Shown: positions 4,477 to 55,974 of the stretch, one piece after another | Layout: each line of letters opens with the position of its first letter | Position numbering within the stretch: position 1 is the stretch's first letter | Source: Bradyrhizobium sp. WSM471 | GTDB lineage: Bacteria; Pseudomonadota; Alphaproteobacteria; Rhizobiales; Xanthobacteraceae | Direction: 5' to 3' | NCBI RefSeq assembly: GCF_000244915.1 | Contig: NZ_CM001442.1 | Span: 1,426,001-1,490,000, forward strand | Length of the DNA: 64,000 nt | Position numbers and translations under genes: made by a program | Notes under the pieces: generated by a model | Databases searched by the model: none | Seen by the model: only the letters and a program-made list of their open reading frames with translations | What the model was told of the DNA's origin: nothing

Positions 4477-5742
4477 ATGTCTCTGCCGCTAACCGGTATC
4501 CGCGTTCTCGACCTGTCAAACGTGTTGGCGGGTCCGTTCTGCGGTTACCATCTTGCGCGCCTTGGCGCGGAGGTCATTAAGGTGGAAAATCCGAACGGCG
4601 GCGACCTGGCGCGGCGCCTCGGCGCGGATCCGCAAAGAGCGGAGCGCCTGCAGGGACTCTCGTTTGTCGCCGTGAACGCCGGCAAGCAATCGATTGCACT
4701 GGACCTGAAATCGGAAGCGGGCCGCGAGGTGTTCTTGCGACTGGTCAAGGAAGCCGACGTGGTGCTCGAAAACTTCCGGCCGAAGGTGATGGAACGCCTT
4801 GGCCTCGGCTTTGATGTGCTTGTCAGGCTGAACCCGCGTCTGGTCTACTGCGCGATCTCCGGCTTTGGGCAGAGCGGACCGTGGTCCGCCCGTCCGGCCT
4901 ATGACCAGATCGTCCAGGGTCTTTCCGGAGCGATGAGCGTCACCGGCGATATAACCTCGGCTCCCCTGCGCACGGGCTTTCCGATCTCGGACACGATTGC
5001 GGGACTGACTGCTGCGTTTGCCATCGCCGCGGCTCTGGTCGACCAGCGGCATAGGCAACGGGGTCGGTTCATCGACGTGTCCCTGCTCGAGGCCACCGTT
5101 GCGGCGATGGGATGGGTCGTCTCCAACCACCTGAACGCCGGGGTCGAGCCGCAGCCCATCGGCAACGAGAACTTTACCGCGGCTCCCTCCGGCACGTTTC
5201 GCACCGCGACGGGCCCGCTGAACATTTCCGCCAACGAGCAGAAGCAGTACCAAGCCCTATGCGACCTGATCGACCGACCGGACCTGAAGGCGGATCCACG
5301 CTTTGCTGGACGCGAGATGCGCAAGGTCAACCGCGCTGCGCTGAGCGCGGAGTTGAACAAGGCATTGAGTTGCAAGCCCGCTGAGGAATGGGAGGCCCAA
5401 ATGAATCTGGCTGGTGTCCCTGCCGGCCGTGTGCTGACGGTCTCGCAAGTGTTGCAGCAGCCACAGGTCCTTGAGCGCGGATTCGTCGAGACTTTGGCGC
5501 CAGAACAAGACGGTGCGCAGCCGTTACGAATCACGCGGCCGGGGTTCCGGCTGGATGAGGAGTTTTCGGTGCCTTCACCACCTGCGACGCTCGGAGCAGA
5601 CACTGAGCGATGGCTGCAGCGGCTCGGCTATTCGTATGCGGAGGTTGAGCAACTGGTCTCAAGCCGAGCCGTCGGGACGCCAAAGCAAGGAGAGGCTGAT
5701 TTCCTGCCCGTCCGCGTAGCCACGGACGGACCGATATCATGA
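4477..5742 (+). CDS. CaiB/BaiF-type (class III) CoA-transferase
   Basis: 421 residues, the usual length for the family. The N-terminus PLTGIRVLDLSNVLAGPFCG and the stretches ARLGAEVIKVENP, ADVVLENFRPKVMERLGLG and YCAISGFGQSGPW are diagnostic. The catalytic Asp of the family is most likely D143 in RPAYDQIVQGLSG. The enzyme moves CoA between carboxylic acids. Placed after a carboxylate-type ABC importer and before a citryl-CoA-lyase-like gene, it probably activates the imported acid. The specific acid is not known. Confidence 0.9.
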   Translation: MSLPLTGIRVLDLSNVLAGPFCGYHLARLGAEVIKVENPNGGDLARRLGADPQRAERLQGLSFVAVNAGKQSIALDLKSEAGREVFLRLVKEADVVLENFRPKVMERLGLGFDVLVRLNPRLVYCAISGFGQSGPWSARPAYDQIVQGLSGAMSVTGDITSAPLRTGFPISDTIAGLTAAFAIAAALVDQRHRQRGRFIDVSLLEATVAAMGWVVSNHLNAGVEPQPIGNENFTAAPSGTFRTATGPLNISANEQKQYQALCDLIDRPDLKADPRFAGREMRKVNRAALSAELNKALSCKPAEEWEAQMNLAGVPAGRVLTVSQVLQQPQVLERGFVETLAPEQDGAQPLRITRPGFRLDEEFSVPSPPATLGADTERWLQRLGYSYAEVEQLVSSRAVGTPKQGEADFLPVRVATDGPIS

Positions 5743-11125: not shown

Positions 11126-11927
11126 GCAGCCCGCGACCAAAAGGCCTCATCGCTCGATTTCGCGAACGAAGTTGTAGATGTGGGACCTTGAGGAGACCAC
11201 GACCGCATGGGGCGCATCGAGGTCGATTAACATCGTTATGAGCTTAAGACGCTGAGCGACGCCGAGGAACCCCTCAAAGGGCTCTGTCGGAGGACACCGT
11301 CGAATTTGTCACGAACAAGGACAAGGCCCTCGATGCTCAGTGGCCGCGTTACGGCCTATCTTCGCTGGCGGCGAGTCGAGGCGAGGCAGACCCGGCGTCG
11401 AGCGGCCACGGACGCATCGAAGCCGGCGCAAAAGTCGCTGAGCACGTGAACACCTAGTGCACCGAGAAGATCATCTTGGCCAACCTCACGGAGGCGGACG
11501 ACCTCGTGCCTGGTCGCGGGCCCGCCGAACACCAAGGAGCCGACCTGATCATCCGTTCGGTCCTGGAGCAATCCGGCTTTCGAAATGTCTAGGGAGCCTC
11601 GTGGGCTGTGACCAAACGGATGCCGGCCGAGGATGATCGCACCTTCCTGACGCGCAGGTTCGAAAAGCTGCTGACGGAAAAGGTCGCCTCCTCGCGATCA
11701 CACAGATACCGAAAGCCGCCCGGGTTCGTTCCGGTGGTGGAGCTCAACCGTTACGCGAGCAGGGAGCGAATGCATTTCAAAAGCGGAGCCTCCACAGATC
11801 CGGGCGTGTTCACTAGGCCGCGAGCAAGACCGTCTTACCTGCCTAGTGCGCTCGTAATCGCTTGGGCAATGTCGCAGCGAGAATCGGTAGGTTGACGCAT
11901 CGATCCTCGTGCGCATAATCCAAGCCG
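11126..11927. other. Stretch without a recognisable gene
   Basis: Contains frames that look like eroded coding sequence (for example AEHQGADLIIRSVLEQSGFR followed by NV and a stop at about 11590) but no family could be named. A 95-residue open frame at 11608-11895 has no homologue I recognise and no clear ribosome binding site. Confidence 0.4.
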
Positions 11928-12105
11928 TCGCGGTCTCCGGATTTCGTTTGATCCGGAGCTAAGAGGGAAGCCGGTGCAATGCCGGCGCTGCCCCCGCAAC
12001 TGTAAGCGGCGAGCCGCTGTCCAACGAAGTCACTGAAGCCATGCGGCTTCGGGAAGGCCGGACAGCAGCGACGACCCGTGAGCCAGGAGACCTGCCTCGA
12101 CAAGA
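11928..12105 (+). promoter_or_regulatory. Cobalamin riboswitch upstream of metE
   Basis: Classic conserved blocks occur in order: GGAAGCCGGTGCAATGCCGG, then CGCTGCCCCCGCAACTGTAA followed by GCGGCGAGCC, then CACTG, then CGGGAAGGCCGG, ACGACCCGTGAGCCAGGAGA and the B12 box AGCCAGGAGACCTGCC at 12081-12096. It ends about 110 bp before the metE start. Adenosyl- or another cobalamin should fold this leader and switch metE off. The outer boundaries are approximate. Confidence 0.93.
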
Positions 12106-12212
12106 TATCGTCCACGGGCGGGGCGTCCCGGTGTGCGCCAAGCAGTTGTCGCTCACGCGATGTTCGCTGTCTGCGTCCGCCATGGCCTTTGCCCCAACAT
12201 GGGGTCTAAGCT

Positions 12213-14528
12213 ATGTCAATCCTTTCGCTTCCCGTTGCCACACTGGGGACGTCACGCATCGGCCCACGACGCGAACTCAAATTCGCGCTCGAGAGCTACT
12301 GGGCGGGAAAATCTAGCGAAGCCGAGCTCCTCGAGGCGGGGAGTGGACTTCGTGCCGCTAATTGGGCACGGCAAAAATCCCGCGGTGCGACCGTCATTCC
12401 TTCGAATGACTTCTCGCTCTACGACCATGTGCTCGATACCAGCCTAATGGTCGGCGCGATTCCCGACGTTTACGGCTGGAACGAAGGTCCTGTGTCGCTC
12501 AAAACCTACTTCACCATGGCGCGTGGCGCTCAAGACGGTGGTCACGCTCAGCATGGGCCCGGCGTAGCCGCACAGGAGATGACGAAGTGGTTCGATACGA
12601 ACTACCACTACATGGTGCCGGAATTTCACCAGGATCAGATCTTTAAGTATGCCTCTCGGAAGCCGATCGAGGAATATGAGGAGGCAAGAAGCCTCGGTTA
12701 TCAGACGCGGCCCGTCCTAGTGGGCCCAGTCACTTTCCTGAAGCTCGGCAAAAGCGTAAATCCCGCATTCAATCCGCTGTCGCTGCTTGATCGACTCCTC
12801 CCCGTCTATGTCGATGTTCTCCGCGAACTAGCCTCGCGCGGCGCTGAATGGGTTCAGCTCGACGAGCCATGCCTAGTGATGGACGTCGACGAAGCATCTC
12901 GGGCCGCTGTCCGCCGGGCCTATGCTCATTTCGCTAAGGCCGTGCCGGCGCTTAAAATCATGCTGGCCACATACTTCGGGGCTGTCGGCGACAATCTTGA
13001 AACAGTATTGGCCTTGCCCGTTGCCGGGGTTCATGTCGACCTGGTTCGTGCACCTGACCAGTTGGACGCGATTGTCGCCAGAGCAGGTAGAGATCTAGTG
13101 GTCTCGCTCGGTGTCGTTGATGGTCGCAACGTGTGGCGCTCTAATCTGCCGGCGCTACTCGACCAACTTGCTCCTATGGTCAAAAAACTGGGCAGGGACC
13201 GTGTTCAGATTGCCCCCTCCTGCTCGCTGCTTCATGTTCCGACCGATATTGAACTAGAGATCGATCTCGATCCCAATCTGAAGACGTGGTTGGCGTTCTC
13301 AGTGCAGAAGATCAAGGAACTTTCGATATTGGGCAAAGCGCTGGCTGGCCATGCTGCCGACGTGGCCGATGAACTCACGCTCTCAGAGGATGCATCCGTC
13401 ACCCGCGAAACATCGCCGAAGATCCACAGTGCGAACGTCGCCGGACGAATGGCCGCGATCGACGATAGCATGCGTCGCCGTCGCAGTGCGTTCACCCAGC
13501 GCGCCGACGTCCAACGCGTCGCCTTCGCATTGCCGATGTTTCCAACCACAACCATCGGATCCTTCCCGCAAACGGCGGACGTCCGCAATGCGCGTGCAGC
13601 TCATGCGCGGGGAGCGCTGAATGACACGCAGTACGAGCAGCTTCTGAAAGCGGAGACAGCCCATACCGTGCATTGGCAGGAAGATATCGGCCTGGACGTG
13701 CTCGTACACGGTGAGTTCGAGCGCAATGACATGGTTCAATACTTTGGCGAGCAGCTGTTGGGTTTCGCATTCACCAAGCACGGCTGGGTTCAGTCTTATG
13801 GCTCGCGGTGCGTTCGTCCTCCTATCCTGTTTGGAGATGTCTCCCGCCCGAAGCCCATGACCGTTAAATGGTGGCGACATGCGCAGTCTCTGACCAAAAA
13901 ACCCGTCAAGGCTATGCTGACCGGACCGGTGACGATCCTGAACTGGTCGTTTGTCCGTGACGACATCCCGCGGAGCGAGACATGCCGACAGATCGCTCTC
14001 GCGATCCGAGACGAGGTCATCGACCTTGAGGCGGCTGGAGCGACCATGATCCAGATCGACGAGGCTGCGTTGCGGGAGGGATTGCCACTGCGCAAATCGC
14101 AGTGGAAGGACTATCTCGATTGGGCAGTGGACAGTTTCCGTGTTTGCTCCTCCGCTGTCGCTGACGGAACTCAGATCCATACGCACATGTGCTATTCCGA
14201 GTTTAACGAAATCATCGATGCGATCGCAGCAATGGATGCCGACGTCATTTCAATCGAGGCGTCGCGCTCCAAAATGGAATTGCTCGACGCTTTCAAGAGC
14301 TACAATTATCCTAATGAAATTGGGCCGGGCGTCTATGACATTCATTCACCGCGCATTCCCGCAGCAGCCGAGATCAAGCAGCTGATTGTGTTGGCGCGGC
14401 AGCGGGTTTCGGATCGGCAGCTCTGGATCAATCCCGACTGCGGACTGAAAACTCGAAGATGGGAGGAGGTGCGTCCCGCGCTCATCAATATGGTGGCCGC
14501 CGCACGCGAGTTGCGGGCCGAGGCATGA
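12213..14528 (+). CDS. metE: Cobalamin-independent methionine synthase (5-methyltetrahydropteroyltriglutamate-homocysteine methyltransferase)
   Basis: 771 residues, full length. The enzyme makes methionine from homocysteine without B12. The N-terminal half begins VATLGTSRIGPRRELKFALE and includes FNPLSLLD. The C-terminal catalytic half begins FPTTTIGSFPQTADVRNARA. The zinc site residues are visible as His-x-Cys in IHTHMCYSEFNEI and the late Cys in NPDCGLKTR; DVISIEASRS is also typical. The gene follows a cobalamin riboswitch, so it should be expressed when B12 is scarce. A 14-bp hairpin follows 45 bp after the stop. Confidence 0.97.
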   Translation: MSILSLPVATLGTSRIGPRRELKFALESYWAGKSSEAELLEAGSGLRAANWARQKSRGATVIPSNDFSLYDHVLDTSLMVGAIPDVYGWNEGPVSLKTYFTMARGAQDGGHAQHGPGVAAQEMTKWFDTNYHYMVPEFHQDQIFKYASRKPIEEYEEARSLGYQTRPVLVGPVTFLKLGKSVNPAFNPLSLLDRLLPVYVDVLRELASRGAEWVQLDEPCLVMDVDEASRAAVRRAYAHFAKAVPALKIMLATYFGAVGDNLETVLALPVAGVHVDLVRAPDQLDAIVARAGRDLVVSLGVVDGRNVWRSNLPALLDQLAPMVKKLGRDRVQIAPSCSLLHVPTDIELEIDLDPNLKTWLAFSVQKIKELSILGKALAGHAADVADELTLSEDASVTRETSPKIHSANVAGRMAAIDDSMRRRRSAFTQRADVQRVAFALPMFPTTTIGSFPQTADVRNARAAHARGALNDTQYEQLLKAETAHTVHWQEDIGLDVLVHGEFERNDMVQYFGEQLLGFAFTKHGWVQSYGSRCVRPPILFGDVSRPKPMTVKWWRHAQSLTKKPVKAMLTGPVTILNWSFVRDDIPRSETCRQIALAIRDEVIDLEAAGATMIQIDEAALREGLPLRKSQWKDYLDWAVDSFRVCSSAVADGTQIHTHMCYSEFNEIIDAIAAMDADVISIEASRSKMELLDAFKSYNYPNEIGPGVYDIHSPRIPAAAEIKQLIVLARQRVSDRQLWINPDCGLKTRRWEEVRPALINMVAAARELRAEA

Positions 14529-43727: not shown

Positions 43728-43743
43728 TGGCACGCCAGTTGCT
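43728..43743 (+). promoter_or_regulatory. Sigma54 promoter of nifH
   Basis: TGGCACG-CCAG-TTGCT, identical to the nifB promoter core. About 160 bp before the start codon. Confidence 0.9.
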
Positions 43744-51108: not shown

Positions 51109-51639
51109 ATGACGATGGTTCGGGTGCAAAAGAGCAGGGCAGCCGCTAACGCGCGGCGAGCAGATGCAGGGCGTGAGAGTTCGGTTGGCGACATCCAGGC
51201 TCGCATAGTCGAACTGAGAAGCTTGCCGCGCGACAAGCTCGCGGATGCGGCGTTTATGCTCTCGATGAATGCACGAAGCCAGCGCCAGTTGATACGAGAG
51301 GCAATCGAGAAGCGCGCCGCGGTCGAGTTGGACTTTGATCCGCCGGCGAAAGGGGATTTGGCGACCTATCTCGCCAATGATGTGGTCTCGACCTTACGCG
51401 ACCACGTTGCGGAACTTCCGACCTTGCTGGACCTCTTGGTTCAGCGAGCGCCTGACGTGGGTTTCACCGTCCATCGGGAGGAGGCCGTTTCGCTGCTCGC
51501 CGCAATCGTTCGCGAACAGCGGCTCGAAGGAGTCCTTGAAGGCCTCAGGCTCGCCGGCCTTCTGAACGAGCCAGCTAAGCATCGCCATGGCGGGTTCTGT
51601 TCAGAAGTGGATTTGGGGGAAGTTGCCGCCCGCACGTGA
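51109..51639 (+). CDS. Hypothetical protein
   Basis: 176 residues. Coding-like composition: LPRDKLADAAFMLSMNARSQ, VELDFDPPAKGDLATYLAND and VAELPTLLDLLVQRAPDVGF. The frame may begin at a later ATG. There is no convincing ribosome binding site (GCATGACG only) and no domain I recognise. The last 20 residues may be out of their original frame. Confidence 0.4.
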   Translation: MTMVRVQKSRAAANARRADAGRESSVGDIQARIVELRSLPRDKLADAAFMLSMNARSQRQLIREAIEKRAAVELDFDPPAKGDLATYLANDVVSTLRDHVAELPTLLDLLVQRAPDVGFTVHREEAVSLLAAIVREQRLEGVLEGLRLAGLLNEPAKHRHGGFCSEVDLGEVAART

Positions 51640-52850: not shown

Positions 52851-52949
52851 GGGTTTCCGATTCAAGAGGGGAGGTAGAACGATTGTTCGAAACGGCACAG
52901 GTTGAGCAAAGACGGGGCCCCCAATGTGTGTTCGATTTCACCCAGACTA

Positions 52950-52965
52950 TGTCAGCTAGCTCACA
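52950..52965. promoter_or_regulatory. NifA upstream activator sequence of the CbiM-like gene
   Basis: Exact TGT-N10-ACA (TGTCAGCTAGCTCACA), 65 bp upstream of a sigma54 promoter. Confidence 0.7.
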
Positions 52966-53030
52966 CGGCGAGCCTTGCGGGGGCGGAACGTTTCAACGCG
53001 CAATCAGAGGCTTAAGCGCGGTGACGGGGC

Positions 53031-53046
53031 TGGCATAGCTGTTGCT
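53031..53046 (+). promoter_or_regulatory. Sigma54 promoter of the CbiM-like gene
   Basis: TGGCATA-GCTG-TTGCT, consensus match, 159 bp before the start codon. Confidence 0.75.
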
Positions 53047-53205
53047 ATCGAAATCTCGCAGACCGAGCGGAGGCTGAGTGCACACCCCGTCCGAGATGGG
53101 GAAAGCAGGACGTTTAGCGGTGGACCGAGGTGCGGAAACTGAAATGCGGTTTCGAGCGGTCTACCACACAAGGCCCGAGTACAAAGGCAAGAGGGACCTG
53201 AGACC

Positions 53206-54093
53206 ATGCATATCGAACCGGGAATAGTAACAGGCGCCAAGCTTGTGTTAAGCTACGCGATAGGCCTTGCGACGTGCTGCGTCGCCGCCAAGCTTCTGGT
53301 CGAGACTATGCGCGAGCGGGGCGCTCCGTCATTTGCTCTGCAAGCCATCGCTGCGACGCTTGTGTTCATGTTCTTCGAGATCCTGCCGCACTTTGCGGTT
53401 GGGGTCTCCGAGGTGCGCTTCGTCCCCGGCTCGATGCTGTTTCTGTTGTTCGGCGCGGCGGCGGCTGCGTTTGGTCTCGCGCTCGGCCTGTTGCTGCAAA
53501 ACATACTCTTTGTTCCGGCCGACCTGCCGCGATTTGGTATGAATGCCACGACGCTTCTAGTGCCGCTGTTTGCGATCCAGGCGCTCGCCAATCGGCTCAT
53601 CCCGTCCAACACCGCGCATCGCGATCTGCAGTACAGCAAGGCGCTTGCCCTCTCGACTGCGTATCAGTGTGGCATCGTTGTCTGCGTCACGTTTTGGGCC
53701 CTCTACGGCGCGGGCTTCGGCGCCGCCAATCTCTATAACATCGCATGGTTCGCGGTTTCCTACGCACTTGTGGCCCTGGTCCAACTAGAGGTTGACCTGG
53801 CTGTGTTGGCGCTCGCGAAACAAGTTGGGCAGCGTGACTGCGGGAGGAGTTGTCGCCAACCGCCTGTAGAAGGCATGTTGCCGTTGGTAACAACGATGGC
53901 CGTCGGAGCGCCCGTTTTGCTAAGCGATGCATACGCTTTCCCTTATAGTTGCCGTGAGCAGCGACCGCGGACGGCGCGTGCTAGCTATCGGTGCCAGCAA
54001 GTCGGCCGAGCTTATGCTCATTCCCGACAAGGCCACCAGGAATTCATATCATGCCAACTTGCGGCCGGCCGTCTGCGCCTGCTTGATGGCTAA
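53206..54093 (+). CDS. CbiM-type energy-coupling factor permease (cobalt or nickel uptake)
   Basis: 295 residues from ATG 53206. The start MHIEPGIVTGAKLVLSYAIG is diagnostic: the N-terminal Met-His of CbiM/NikM-type S components helps bind the metal. About six membrane segments follow, with FFEILPHFAVGVSEVRFVPG, FGMNATTLLVPLFAIQALAN and ALALSTAYQCGIVVCVTFWA. After about residue 205 (LALAKQVGQRDC) the remaining 90 residues are hydrophilic and look out of frame; family members of this type end near residue 210-220. The stop may have been lost by a small indel. No cbiN, Q or O genes are adjacent. The NifA/sigma54 promoter points to expression in nodules. Confidence 0.82.
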   Translation: MHIEPGIVTGAKLVLSYAIGLATCCVAAKLLVETMRERGAPSFALQAIAATLVFMFFEILPHFAVGVSEVRFVPGSMLFLLFGAAAAAFGLALGLLLQNILFVPADLPRFGMNATTLLVPLFAIQALANRLIPSNTAHRDLQYSKALALSTAYQCGIVVCVTFWALYGAGFGAANLYNIAWFAVSYALVALVQLEVDLAVLALAKQVGQRDCGRSCRQPPVEGMLPLVTTMAVGAPVLLSDAYAFPYSCREQRPRTARASYRCQQVGRAYAHSRQGHQEFISCQLAAGRLRLLDG

Positions 54094-54396
54094 TCAGCGG
54101 ACGCGCACGACGGATTTCGTCCTGCCGGCGCGCGATGCAGTCGAGGCGGACTGCCGCAACGACGTGGAACAATGGCCTCATTCGGTCAGCGCAGCAGGCG
54201 GGTCACACAGCATCGTGGGCGAGGTTGGACGCGAGGGAGGTGTTGCGCTGCTCATTCAGGGACATTCATCTGTCGAGCGAGCTTACCTATTCAACATTAG
54301 CACCCTTCTGGGCACTGCGATCGAGCGCCTTTGGCCACTTCGCAGCGCTCTGCTGCGCTCGTTGGGAATGGTTGCGGTCCGACAAAGAAAATCGCC
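54094..54396. other. Spacer before the thermonuclease gene
   Basis: A 160-codon plus frame crosses this stretch but shows no family pattern. No promoter recognised. Confidence 0.35.
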
Positions 54397-54918
54397 ATGC
54401 CAGGCTTGATCGTGGTGTTGACCATGCTCGCACTGTTCAGCATCGTCCTGGCCGGCGGGCTGACGGGGCCGGCAAAGGTCATCAGTACCGACACCCTTGA
54501 AATCAACAGAACGCGCGTTCGACTCTGGGGCATTGACGCGCCGGATGAGACCCAAATGTGCCGAGATATCAAGGGCAATCCATATCAATGTGGCCTCAGG
54601 GCCGCGCGCGATCTTGAAAGCTTCGTTGAAGATCGCGAAGTCAGTTGCGTGCCAGTCCTGGAGGATGAGTGTGGACGGACGATAGCGACCTGTTCAGCTG
54701 GTGGCACCGATATTGGAGAATGGTTGGTGCGCAACGGTCTCGTGCTCGATTGGAAGCAATACTCCAGGGGACGATACTATGCTGCGCAACGCGCGGCCGA
54801 TCGTGCCGGGCTGGGCTTATGGGCGGGCAGCTTTGCCGTACCTTGGTTATATCGAGCGTGCATTCGGTTGGGTGGTCGACCAGCCAGCTGTTCTGACGAC
54901 GCGAACGCACATCCTTGA
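54397..54918 (+). CDS. Thermonuclease family protein (SNase-like)
   Basis: 173 residues from ATG 54397, preceded by GAAAATCGCC (weak ribosome binding site). Residues 1-25 are a signal peptide or anchor (MPGLIVVLTMLALFSIVLAG). The SNase core is visible: KVISTDTLEINRTRVRLWGI followed by DAPDETQMC, then EDECGRTIATCSAGGTDIGE and WLVRNGLVLDW. The two catalytic Arg positions (in RVRLWGIDAP and in CGRTIA) are present; the usual Glu after DAP is Asp followed by Glu. Probably a periplasmic nuclease-like protein. Confidence 0.82.
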   Translation: MPGLIVVLTMLALFSIVLAGGLTGPAKVISTDTLEINRTRVRLWGIDAPDETQMCRDIKGNPYQCGLRAARDLESFVEDREVSCVPVLEDECGRTIATCSAGGTDIGEWLVRNGLVLDWKQYSRGRYYAAQRAADRAGLGLWAGSFAVPWLYRACIRLGGRPASCSDDANAHP

Positions 54919-55587: not shown

Positions 55588-55902
55588 TCAGGACACGAGC
55601 TTCAGCCCGACAATGCCGGCCACGATCAGTCCGATGCTGGCAAAGCGAAACGCGGCGGCCGGCTCCCCGAACAGAATGATGCCGAGCGCCGCGGTGCCGA
55701 CCGCGCCGATGCCGGTCCAGACCGCATAGGCAGTTCCAATGGGCAGCGTCTTCAGAGCGAGGCCGAGCAGGATCACGCTGCCAGCCATGGCCACGAGCGT
55801 GAGCACGGACGGAACGAGCTTGGTAAAGCCCTCGGTGTATTTGAGGCCAATTGCCCAGGCGACTTCCAGGAGGCCGGCGACCAACAAAATGCTCCAGGCC
55901 AT
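55588..55902 (-). CDS. SMR-family exporter, SugE/Gdx type (guanidinium exporter)
   Basis: 104 residues, four membrane helices. The start [20 protein letters not shown] contains the family Glu ([12 protein letters not shown]), and [20 protein letters not shown] with FGEPAA is the SugE/Gdx signature rather than EmrE. Many proteins of this group export guanidinium. GGAGG lies before the start, and a guanidine-II riboswitch precedes it, which strongly supports guanidinium as the substrate. Monocistronic on the minus strand. Confidence 0.93.
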
Positions 55903-55917
55903 GGCGACCTCCGTTCA

Positions 55918-55974
55918 TGGCGGGGTCGTCCCCGCGGCTGATGTGATGATGAGCGGCAAGGCCGTCCTCGCCTG
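55918..55974 (-). promoter_or_regulatory. Guanidine-II (mini-ykkC) riboswitch
   Basis: On the minus strand two hairpins precede sugE. The first is GGCGAGG-ACGG-CCTTGCC (55972-55955); the second is GCGGGG-ACGA-CCCCGC (55935-55920). Both loops fit the conserved ACGR of the class, the spacer is 19 bases, and the second hairpin ends about 10 bases before the ribosome binding site. Guanidine binding should dimerise the loops and free the ribosome binding site. Confidence 0.85.

Follow-up and report, generated by a model that had tools for sequence, protein, structure and literature searches.

Gene content and distribution of the locus

The stretch of DNA analysed here (the window) comprises 64,000 nucleotides of Bradyrhizobium sp. 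WSM471, positions 1426001–1490000 of a 7.78 Mb genome in a single contig, and its gene content is that of a symbiosis region. Named relatives, among them B. canariense BTA-1 at 94%, and a search of the genus agree with a place in Bradyrhizobium. Between fixBCX and sugE, a CbiM-family gene lies behind elements of the NifA and sigma54 type. The features considered below are:

upstream of the cbiM copy: nifH and nifQ
upstream of the cbiM copy: fixB, fixC and fixX, with fixB and fixC named after a matching annotated plasmid region
52884–52899, forward strand: NifA-type site 1, an exact match to TGT-N10-ACA, TGTTCGAAACGGCACA
52950–52965, forward strand: NifA-type site 2, an exact match to TGT-N10-ACA, TGTCAGCTAGCTCACA
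53031–53046, forward strand: sigma54-type -24/-12 element, TGGCATAGCTGTTGCT, 65 bp downstream of the site at 52950
53206–54093, forward strand: symbiotic cbiM copy, 295 aa, beginning MHIEPG (CbiM, PF01891)
53416–53418, forward strand: codon 71 of cbiM, Arg in place of His in an alignment with 72 distinct relatives
53922–54093, forward strand: run-on C-terminus of cbiM, out of frame through the cobF relic after a one-base deletion
53927–54289, forward strand: truncated cobF relic (precorrin-6A synthase), residues 1–121 of 249 (TIGR02434, tblastn)
54397–54918, forward strand: SNase-fold gene, a staphylococcal nuclease homologue (PF00565, 41.7 bits)
55588–55902, reverse strand: sugE, downstream of the cbiM copy
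downstream of the cbiM copy: radical-SAM/SPASM gene

An earlier note on this DNA had described an exact TGT-N10-ACA site and a -24/-12 element ahead of a CbiM-family gene. Both motifs are present, at 52950 and 53031; the second exact site, at 52884, had been missed. The ORF at 53206–54093 matches the Pfam CbiM profile with 43.3 bits (cut-off 23.1) and, as the note had said of the ATPase genes, none of the genes for CbiQ, CbiO or CbiN adjoins it.

The arrangement was found at 17 loci, in 16 of 265 Bradyrhizobium genomes and on a nif/fix-bearing plasmid of Bradyrhizobium sp. 187, and the locus comparison took in the window, all 15 other genomic loci and the plasmid locus. CbiM relatives of any kind occur in 133 of the 265 genomes, and the symbiotic copy was distinguished from them by identity and locus. 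Locus L076 (Bradyrhizobium sp. 139) is identical in sequence to L130 across the 1.1 kb examined, and the two count as a single locus; among the 17 loci, the pairs L124/L125 and L121/L122 are near-identical in cbiM. NodA scored above the cut-off in 160 of the 265 genomes. A NodA tree of 40 sequences from 39 genomes groups all 16 carriers in a single clade with 23 members (support 86), a number that may be an underestimate since the sequences were hand-chosen among those listed. For genomes with two NodA, the copy of carrier type was used; G182 entered with both, the second of which lies outside the clade. Seven of the 23 clade members, G112 and G216 among them, are without the cbiM copy. When plasmids were searched by tblastn, non-Bradyrhizobium matches among the best 60 of 87 records were 52.6–61.1% identical, and the one such locus inspected, on a plasmid of S. 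alkalisoli, adjoins nitrile hydratase genes.

Conservation of the promoter elements

The window contains 16 exact TGT-N10-ACA sites, compared with 7.4 expected from shuffles, so that a single site is weak evidence by itself, and this abundance is what speaks for reading the motifs as chance matches. Their conservation across the 17 loci, however, makes such a reading very improbable. The TGT and ACA half-sites at 52950 are invariant at all 17 loci, and the site at 52884 is exact at 11. Compared with the search consensus TGGCACG-N4-TTGCW, the -24/-12 element has two mismatches, with GG and GC intact. It is identical at 16 loci and differs by one base at the remaining one, L118; it is retained at all six loci in which the cbiM frame is broken, among which L118 carries the changed base. 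Over the 18 bp from 53030 to 53047, 15 of 18 columns are invariant; in the sequence beyond the three elements the figure is 119 of 275 (Fisher p 0.0009). The 15 best-conserved 18-bp stretches listed upstream all overlap this one. Since the -24/-12 element is the most conserved upstream stretch, control of the cbiM-copy promoter by NifA and sigma54 is likely, and we regard it as a strong prediction. The promoter is conserved at orthologous loci, for which the earlier note had suggested a search. Elsewhere in the window, several TGT-N10-ACA sites lie at most 250 bp upstream of -24/-12-like elements (16844 on the reverse strand, 21481, 34903, 37818, 43728 and 47008).

Likeness to the nifH promoter

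When the 16-bp core was masked, a local alignment of the cbiM-promoter flanks with those of the window's nifH promoter, at 43728, scored 21.5, and the two align at nearly equal offset from the core. No score as high was obtained with 5000 random stretches of the window (maximum 19.0), and nine other -24/-12-like sites scored only 7.5–11.5 in the same flank alignment. An earlier null of up to 2000 stretches, in which both loci were themselves included, gave p 0.003. By plain blastn the two promoters matched at E 0.73, and in a genome search with the cbiM promoter region at E up to 10 the nifH promoter was not among the matches. The match is modest, and descent of the cbiM promoter from a copy of the nifH promoter is likely but unproven. 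In Mesorhizobium loti R7A, according to excerpts of PMC3538637, NifA-type promoters have been re-used before fragments of nifH, nifQ and fixV.

At E < 1e-40 the promoter region was matched in exactly the 16 carrier genomes, and at E 0.001 in 23 genomes. A nifH-like -24/-12 element with a cbiM-like leader also occurs in L157 (about 1542), L164 (about 1515, reverse strand) and L153 (about 529, reverse strand), where the gene behind the leader was recognised by eye as thioredoxin-like; the remaining weak promoter matches precede other sequence. Genomes G112 and G216 hold an inverted relic of promoter and leader (L151 and L152, about 1501–1597), accompanied by neither cbiM nor a close nuclease-like orthologue.

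Descent of the cbiM copy from a B12 cluster

The same genome encodes a second CbiM, at 3443574–3444197, which is 66% identical to the window copy over residues 1–207. This chromosomal cbiM is intact (225 aa) and is followed by an intact cobF. Its cobalamin riboswitch lies at 5318–5537 of L003, about 40 bases before the cbiM start at 5575. The annotated cob cluster of Bradyrhizobium sp. BWA-3-5 (L119) has the same order, a riboswitch and then cbiM-cobF. In the leader of the symbiotic copy, an Rfam search up to E 5 detected no residual riboswitch. The cobF relic behind that copy scores 38.5 bits against TIGR02434, below the cut-off of 195.8, and at all 17 loci the cobF tblastn matches stop at residue 104–121. 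In a tree that took in chromosomal Bradyrhizobium cbiM copies, though not that of L119, the full-length symbiotic copies, 11 in number, form a single group (support 100) nested within the chromosomal ones; their clade adjoins C_L018 with support 95 from nucleotides and 70 from protein. The simplest account is that a cbiM-cobF' fragment was copied once.

Reading frame and selection

A full-length cbiM frame is present at 11 of the 17 loci, and the frame is broken at six (L118, L130, L131, L132, L133 and L134). Since L131, L132 and L134 have a common break near codon 132, a sequencing slip is unlikely there. Frames of fixB and/or fixC are also split in L123, L131 and L132, through assembly errors or genuine symbiotic decay, so some of the broken cbiM frames may be assembly errors. 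The remark in the earlier note that the C-terminus runs past the usual end was correct: the window protein has 295 aa and the ten other full-length symbiotic copies 247–248 aa, owing to a single-base deletion seen on alignment with two copies, L120 and L121.

Across ten intact loci, the summed pairwise dN/dS of cbiM is 0.64; at the same loci it is 0.055 for fixB, 0.077 for fixC, 0.081 for fixX and 0.10 for sugE, and higher values, 0.26 and 0.52, come from the SPASM gene and a small ORF at 51109, respectively. Locus L123 is left out of this set because its fixB and/or fixC frame is split. Chromosomal cbiM pairs have a median dN/dS of 0.11, and codon models of chromosomal cbiM sets give 0.05–0.08. 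For the window, L120, L121 and L122, the codon-model value is 0.35 (twice the log-likelihood difference from a ratio of 1, 21.0), and when L123 is added to this subclade it is 0.34 (34.5). The window and L120 differ in cbiM by 11 nonsynonymous and 14 synonymous changes (p 0.0014). The value of 0.35 means that some constraint has been kept in the window's subclade, which argues against a plain pseudogene label. In the other clade (L124 and L126–L129), dN/dS of cbiM is 1.03 (0.02).

At the 84 columns that are conserved among 40 distinct relatives from outside Bradyrhizobium, the symbiotic copies deviate 8–20 times, compared with a median of 5 and a maximum of 7 in 32 chromosomal copies. One deviation concerns the His of a G-x-S-x-x-H type motif, at codon 71 of the window copy, which we take to be a metal ligand, as in NikM structures. 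All 40 distinct references from other genera have His here, and so do all 32 chromosomal copies from Bradyrhizobium (72/72). Among the 11 full-length symbiotic copies it is Arg in four (the window, L120, L121 and L122), Gln in L127 and His in six. The motif was found by pattern in 15 of 18 canonical CbiM loci and by eye in L182, the other two having been read in the wrong frame. The Met-His start (with some GTG start codons read as Met), and with it His2, is kept in all 11 copies, as is His63. Excerpts of PMC6828968 describe the first two residues of CbiM-type proteins as taking part in substrate binding.

Partners and need for metal transport

Transport by solitary units has been reported. 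In the available part of PMC7689651, CbiM with CbiN is presented as the minimal pair. The earlier note had suggested a check for cbiNQO or hup genes elsewhere in the genome; neither CbiQ nor [NiFe] hydrogenase was matched there. A profile search of the genome for CbiQ (PF02361) gave no match, with 10 of 14 control genomes positive, so both CbiM copies appear solitary, lacking a dedicated energising module. A shared ECF energising module elsewhere in the genome was rejected on the same result. The profile of [NiFe] hydrogenase (PF00374) likewise had no match in the genome and matched 5 of 14 controls; its absence led us to reject nickel supply to an uptake hydrogenase, one of the purposes that the note had brought up. 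The genome also has redundant capacity, an intact chromosomal cbiM and two NicO-family permeases. Cobalamin genes are suppressed during fixation in Azoarcus, according to the portion of PMC8467165 consulted, which argues against a general demand for extra B12 at that stage.

A sequence search of the PDB returned no meaningful solved-structure relatives of the window CbiM, and AlphaFold predicted the 295-aa protein with a mean pLDDT of 55.7, too poorly for fold comparison.

A conserved nuclease-like gene downstream

The SNase-fold gene starts about 1.35 kb downstream of the NifA-type promoter. Across its matched length it has no stop at any of the 17 loci, including the six with a broken cbiM. 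Of the 265 genomes, the 16 carriers and no others have a close orthologue (79% or more), and more distant relatives occur in 263. The SNase-fold gene has a dN/dS of 0.42 in the clade in which that of cbiM is 1.03 (twice the log-likelihood difference from a ratio of 1, 7.6), 0.55 in the window's clade (11.0) and 0.56 over 16 loci (18.6). On the forward strand, a scan of 53047–54397 found no further consensus -24/-12 element, and a scan between 53329 and 54397 found no terminator-like site. There are a weak terminator-like hairpin within cbiM, at 53316–53329, and a weak sigma70-like site at 54024–54052, so the SNase-fold gene may have a promoter of its own. It possibly belongs, via read-through, to the cbiM transcription unit. 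An N-terminus that appears hydrophobic by eye suggests that the protein is exported or membrane-anchored.

Interpretation and competing explanations

We consider it fairly probable that the locus is a rewired duplicate, in which a credible NifA-type promoter stands before a decaying, solitary cbiM paralogue. In the ancestor of one symbiotic Bradyrhizobium lineage, cbiM and the first half of cobF would have been copied from the chromosomal B12 cluster. The fragment would have been inserted in the symbiosis region between fixBCX and sugE, with a NifA/sigma54 promoter, perhaps a nifH-promoter copy, replacing the B12 riboswitch. In bacteroids, NifA bound at TGT-N10-ACA would most likely activate RNA polymerase-sigma54 at 53031. 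Transcription would begin roughly 150 nt ahead of cbiM and continue across cbiM and the cobF relic, probably into the nuclease-like gene as well. The cbiM copy, acting as a solitary S component, probably once allowed cobalt entry insensitive to B12; it is now decaying and probably yields no competent metal transporter in this strain. The locus is a clear case of regulatory rewiring of a metal-uptake gene, from B12 riboswitch to NifA/sigma54-type promoter, followed by decay, and its many copies can be compared. It raises the question whether a shortage of cobalt ever held back fixation in these nodules, and it cautions that a good NifA promoter does not prove that the next gene works.

The open SNase-fold gene at all loci would give the promoter a reason to persist where cbiM is broken, and the promoter may now be kept for that gene, with cbiM as a passenger in its leader. 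This explanation, which has a real though lesser chance of being right, is compatible with the rewired duplicate and would place the function in a nuclease-like protein made in nodules, either exported or anchored in the membrane. The occurrence of a close orthologue in precisely the carrier genomes agrees with it, as do the gene's dN/dS of 0.42 beside neutral cbiM and the stretch upstream of it, clear of other -24/-12 elements and, from 53329, of terminator-like sites. Selection on the gene is only moderate, however (0.56), its distant relatives are almost ubiquitous in the genus, and its export was judged by eye; it also lies far from the NifA promoter, with a hairpin and a sigma70-like site, maybe its own promoter, in between. 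We nevertheless flag this conserved gene as the more likely NifA target. A wider scenario, which we put forward as speculative, is that fusion of a nifH-promoter copy to cbiM once tied cobalt entry to nitrogenase expression in one symbiotic lineage, that cbiM is now being lost in parallel, and that the promoter has passed to the exported nuclease-like protein. If so, this protein would be the surviving NifA-controlled product in nodules, and cobalt entry would once have been off B12 feedback.

The earlier note had read the gene as part of cobalt or nickel uptake in symbiosis; a working role of this kind is not supported, given that the gene is a duplicate under relaxed selection, broken in frame at 6 of 17 loci and stripped of a conserved His in this strain. 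A working bacteroid cobalt transporter under NifA, in the form of a solitary S component that has escaped feedback by B12, would accord with the conserved promoter, the retained MHIEPG start and His2, and the residual purifying selection in the window's subclade. Against it stand Arg in the window and Gln in L127 where 72 of 72 distinct relatives have His, the broken frame of the close relative L133, the run-on C-terminus, the neutral evolution of the sister clade and the absence of the gene from 7 of 23 NodA-clade members, and we regard it as unlikely. Slightly less likely still is a neofunctionalised membrane protein that kept the CbiM fold, dropped metal binding and took on another bacteroid role in the window's subclade. 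Purifying selection would fit such a protein, given that the window, L120, L121 and L122 have all lost the conserved His, but the frame of L133, placed in that subclade on its upstream sequence, breaks early, and the 17–19 deviations at conserved columns resemble decay, with no independent sign of a new role.

Relation to known systems

The solitary CbiM of proteobacterial B12 clusters, such as that of L119, belongs to the same family and has the same cbiM-cobF order as the symbiotic copy. The window copy differs from it in having a NifA-type promoter for a riboswitch, a truncated cobF and a lost loop His, and in its decay. The group I ECF cobalt transporter CbiMNQO of Salmonella and Rhodobacter has, by Pfam, an S component of the same family; unlike that system, the window genome has no CbiQ-family match, and its CbiM has no PDB relative by sequence.

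A search of open-licence literature, by titles and abstract starts, found no paper on a NifA-controlled CbiM. In the part of the comparative NifA-regulon paper PMC4999443 that was available, 'cobal', 'CbiM' and 'nickel' do not occur. The NifA/RpoN regulon of M. loti R7A resembles the present case in the re-use of a NifA-type promoter before unrelated or broken symbiosis-island genes; it differs in that 'cobal' and 'nickel' have no occurrence in the main text of PMC3538637, as far as that text was available. For nickel, the earlier note claimed too much in describing metal uptake under the nitrogen-fixation activator as a new link. Titles cited in PMC3923141 name NifA-controlled hydrogenase genes, and hupE as a nickel transporter, in Rhizobium leguminosarum, so that a metal transporter is likewise tied to nitrogen-fixation control; there the metal is nickel for hydrogenase and the family is HupE, and in the window genome no [NiFe] hydrogenase was found. 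In Bradyrhizobium sp. DOA9, an RpoN-type element lies at -47 of a gene for a Ni/Co TonB receptor, whose tag suggests a plasmid location, according to excerpts of PMC13207237.

Other features of the symbiosis region

Between fixX and the cbiM copy lies a 176-aa ORF (51109–51639, forward strand) with no Pfam match; it is under relaxed selection (dN/dS about 0.5) and is fragmented in L133 and L134. A Guanidine-II (mini-ykkC) riboswitch at 55921–55973 on the reverse strand is directly 5' of sugE. Further away in the symbiosis region, a cobalamin riboswitch at 11914–12113 on the forward strand (135 bits) immediately precedes a 771-aa ORF, 12213–14528, which was judged by eye to be MetE-like.
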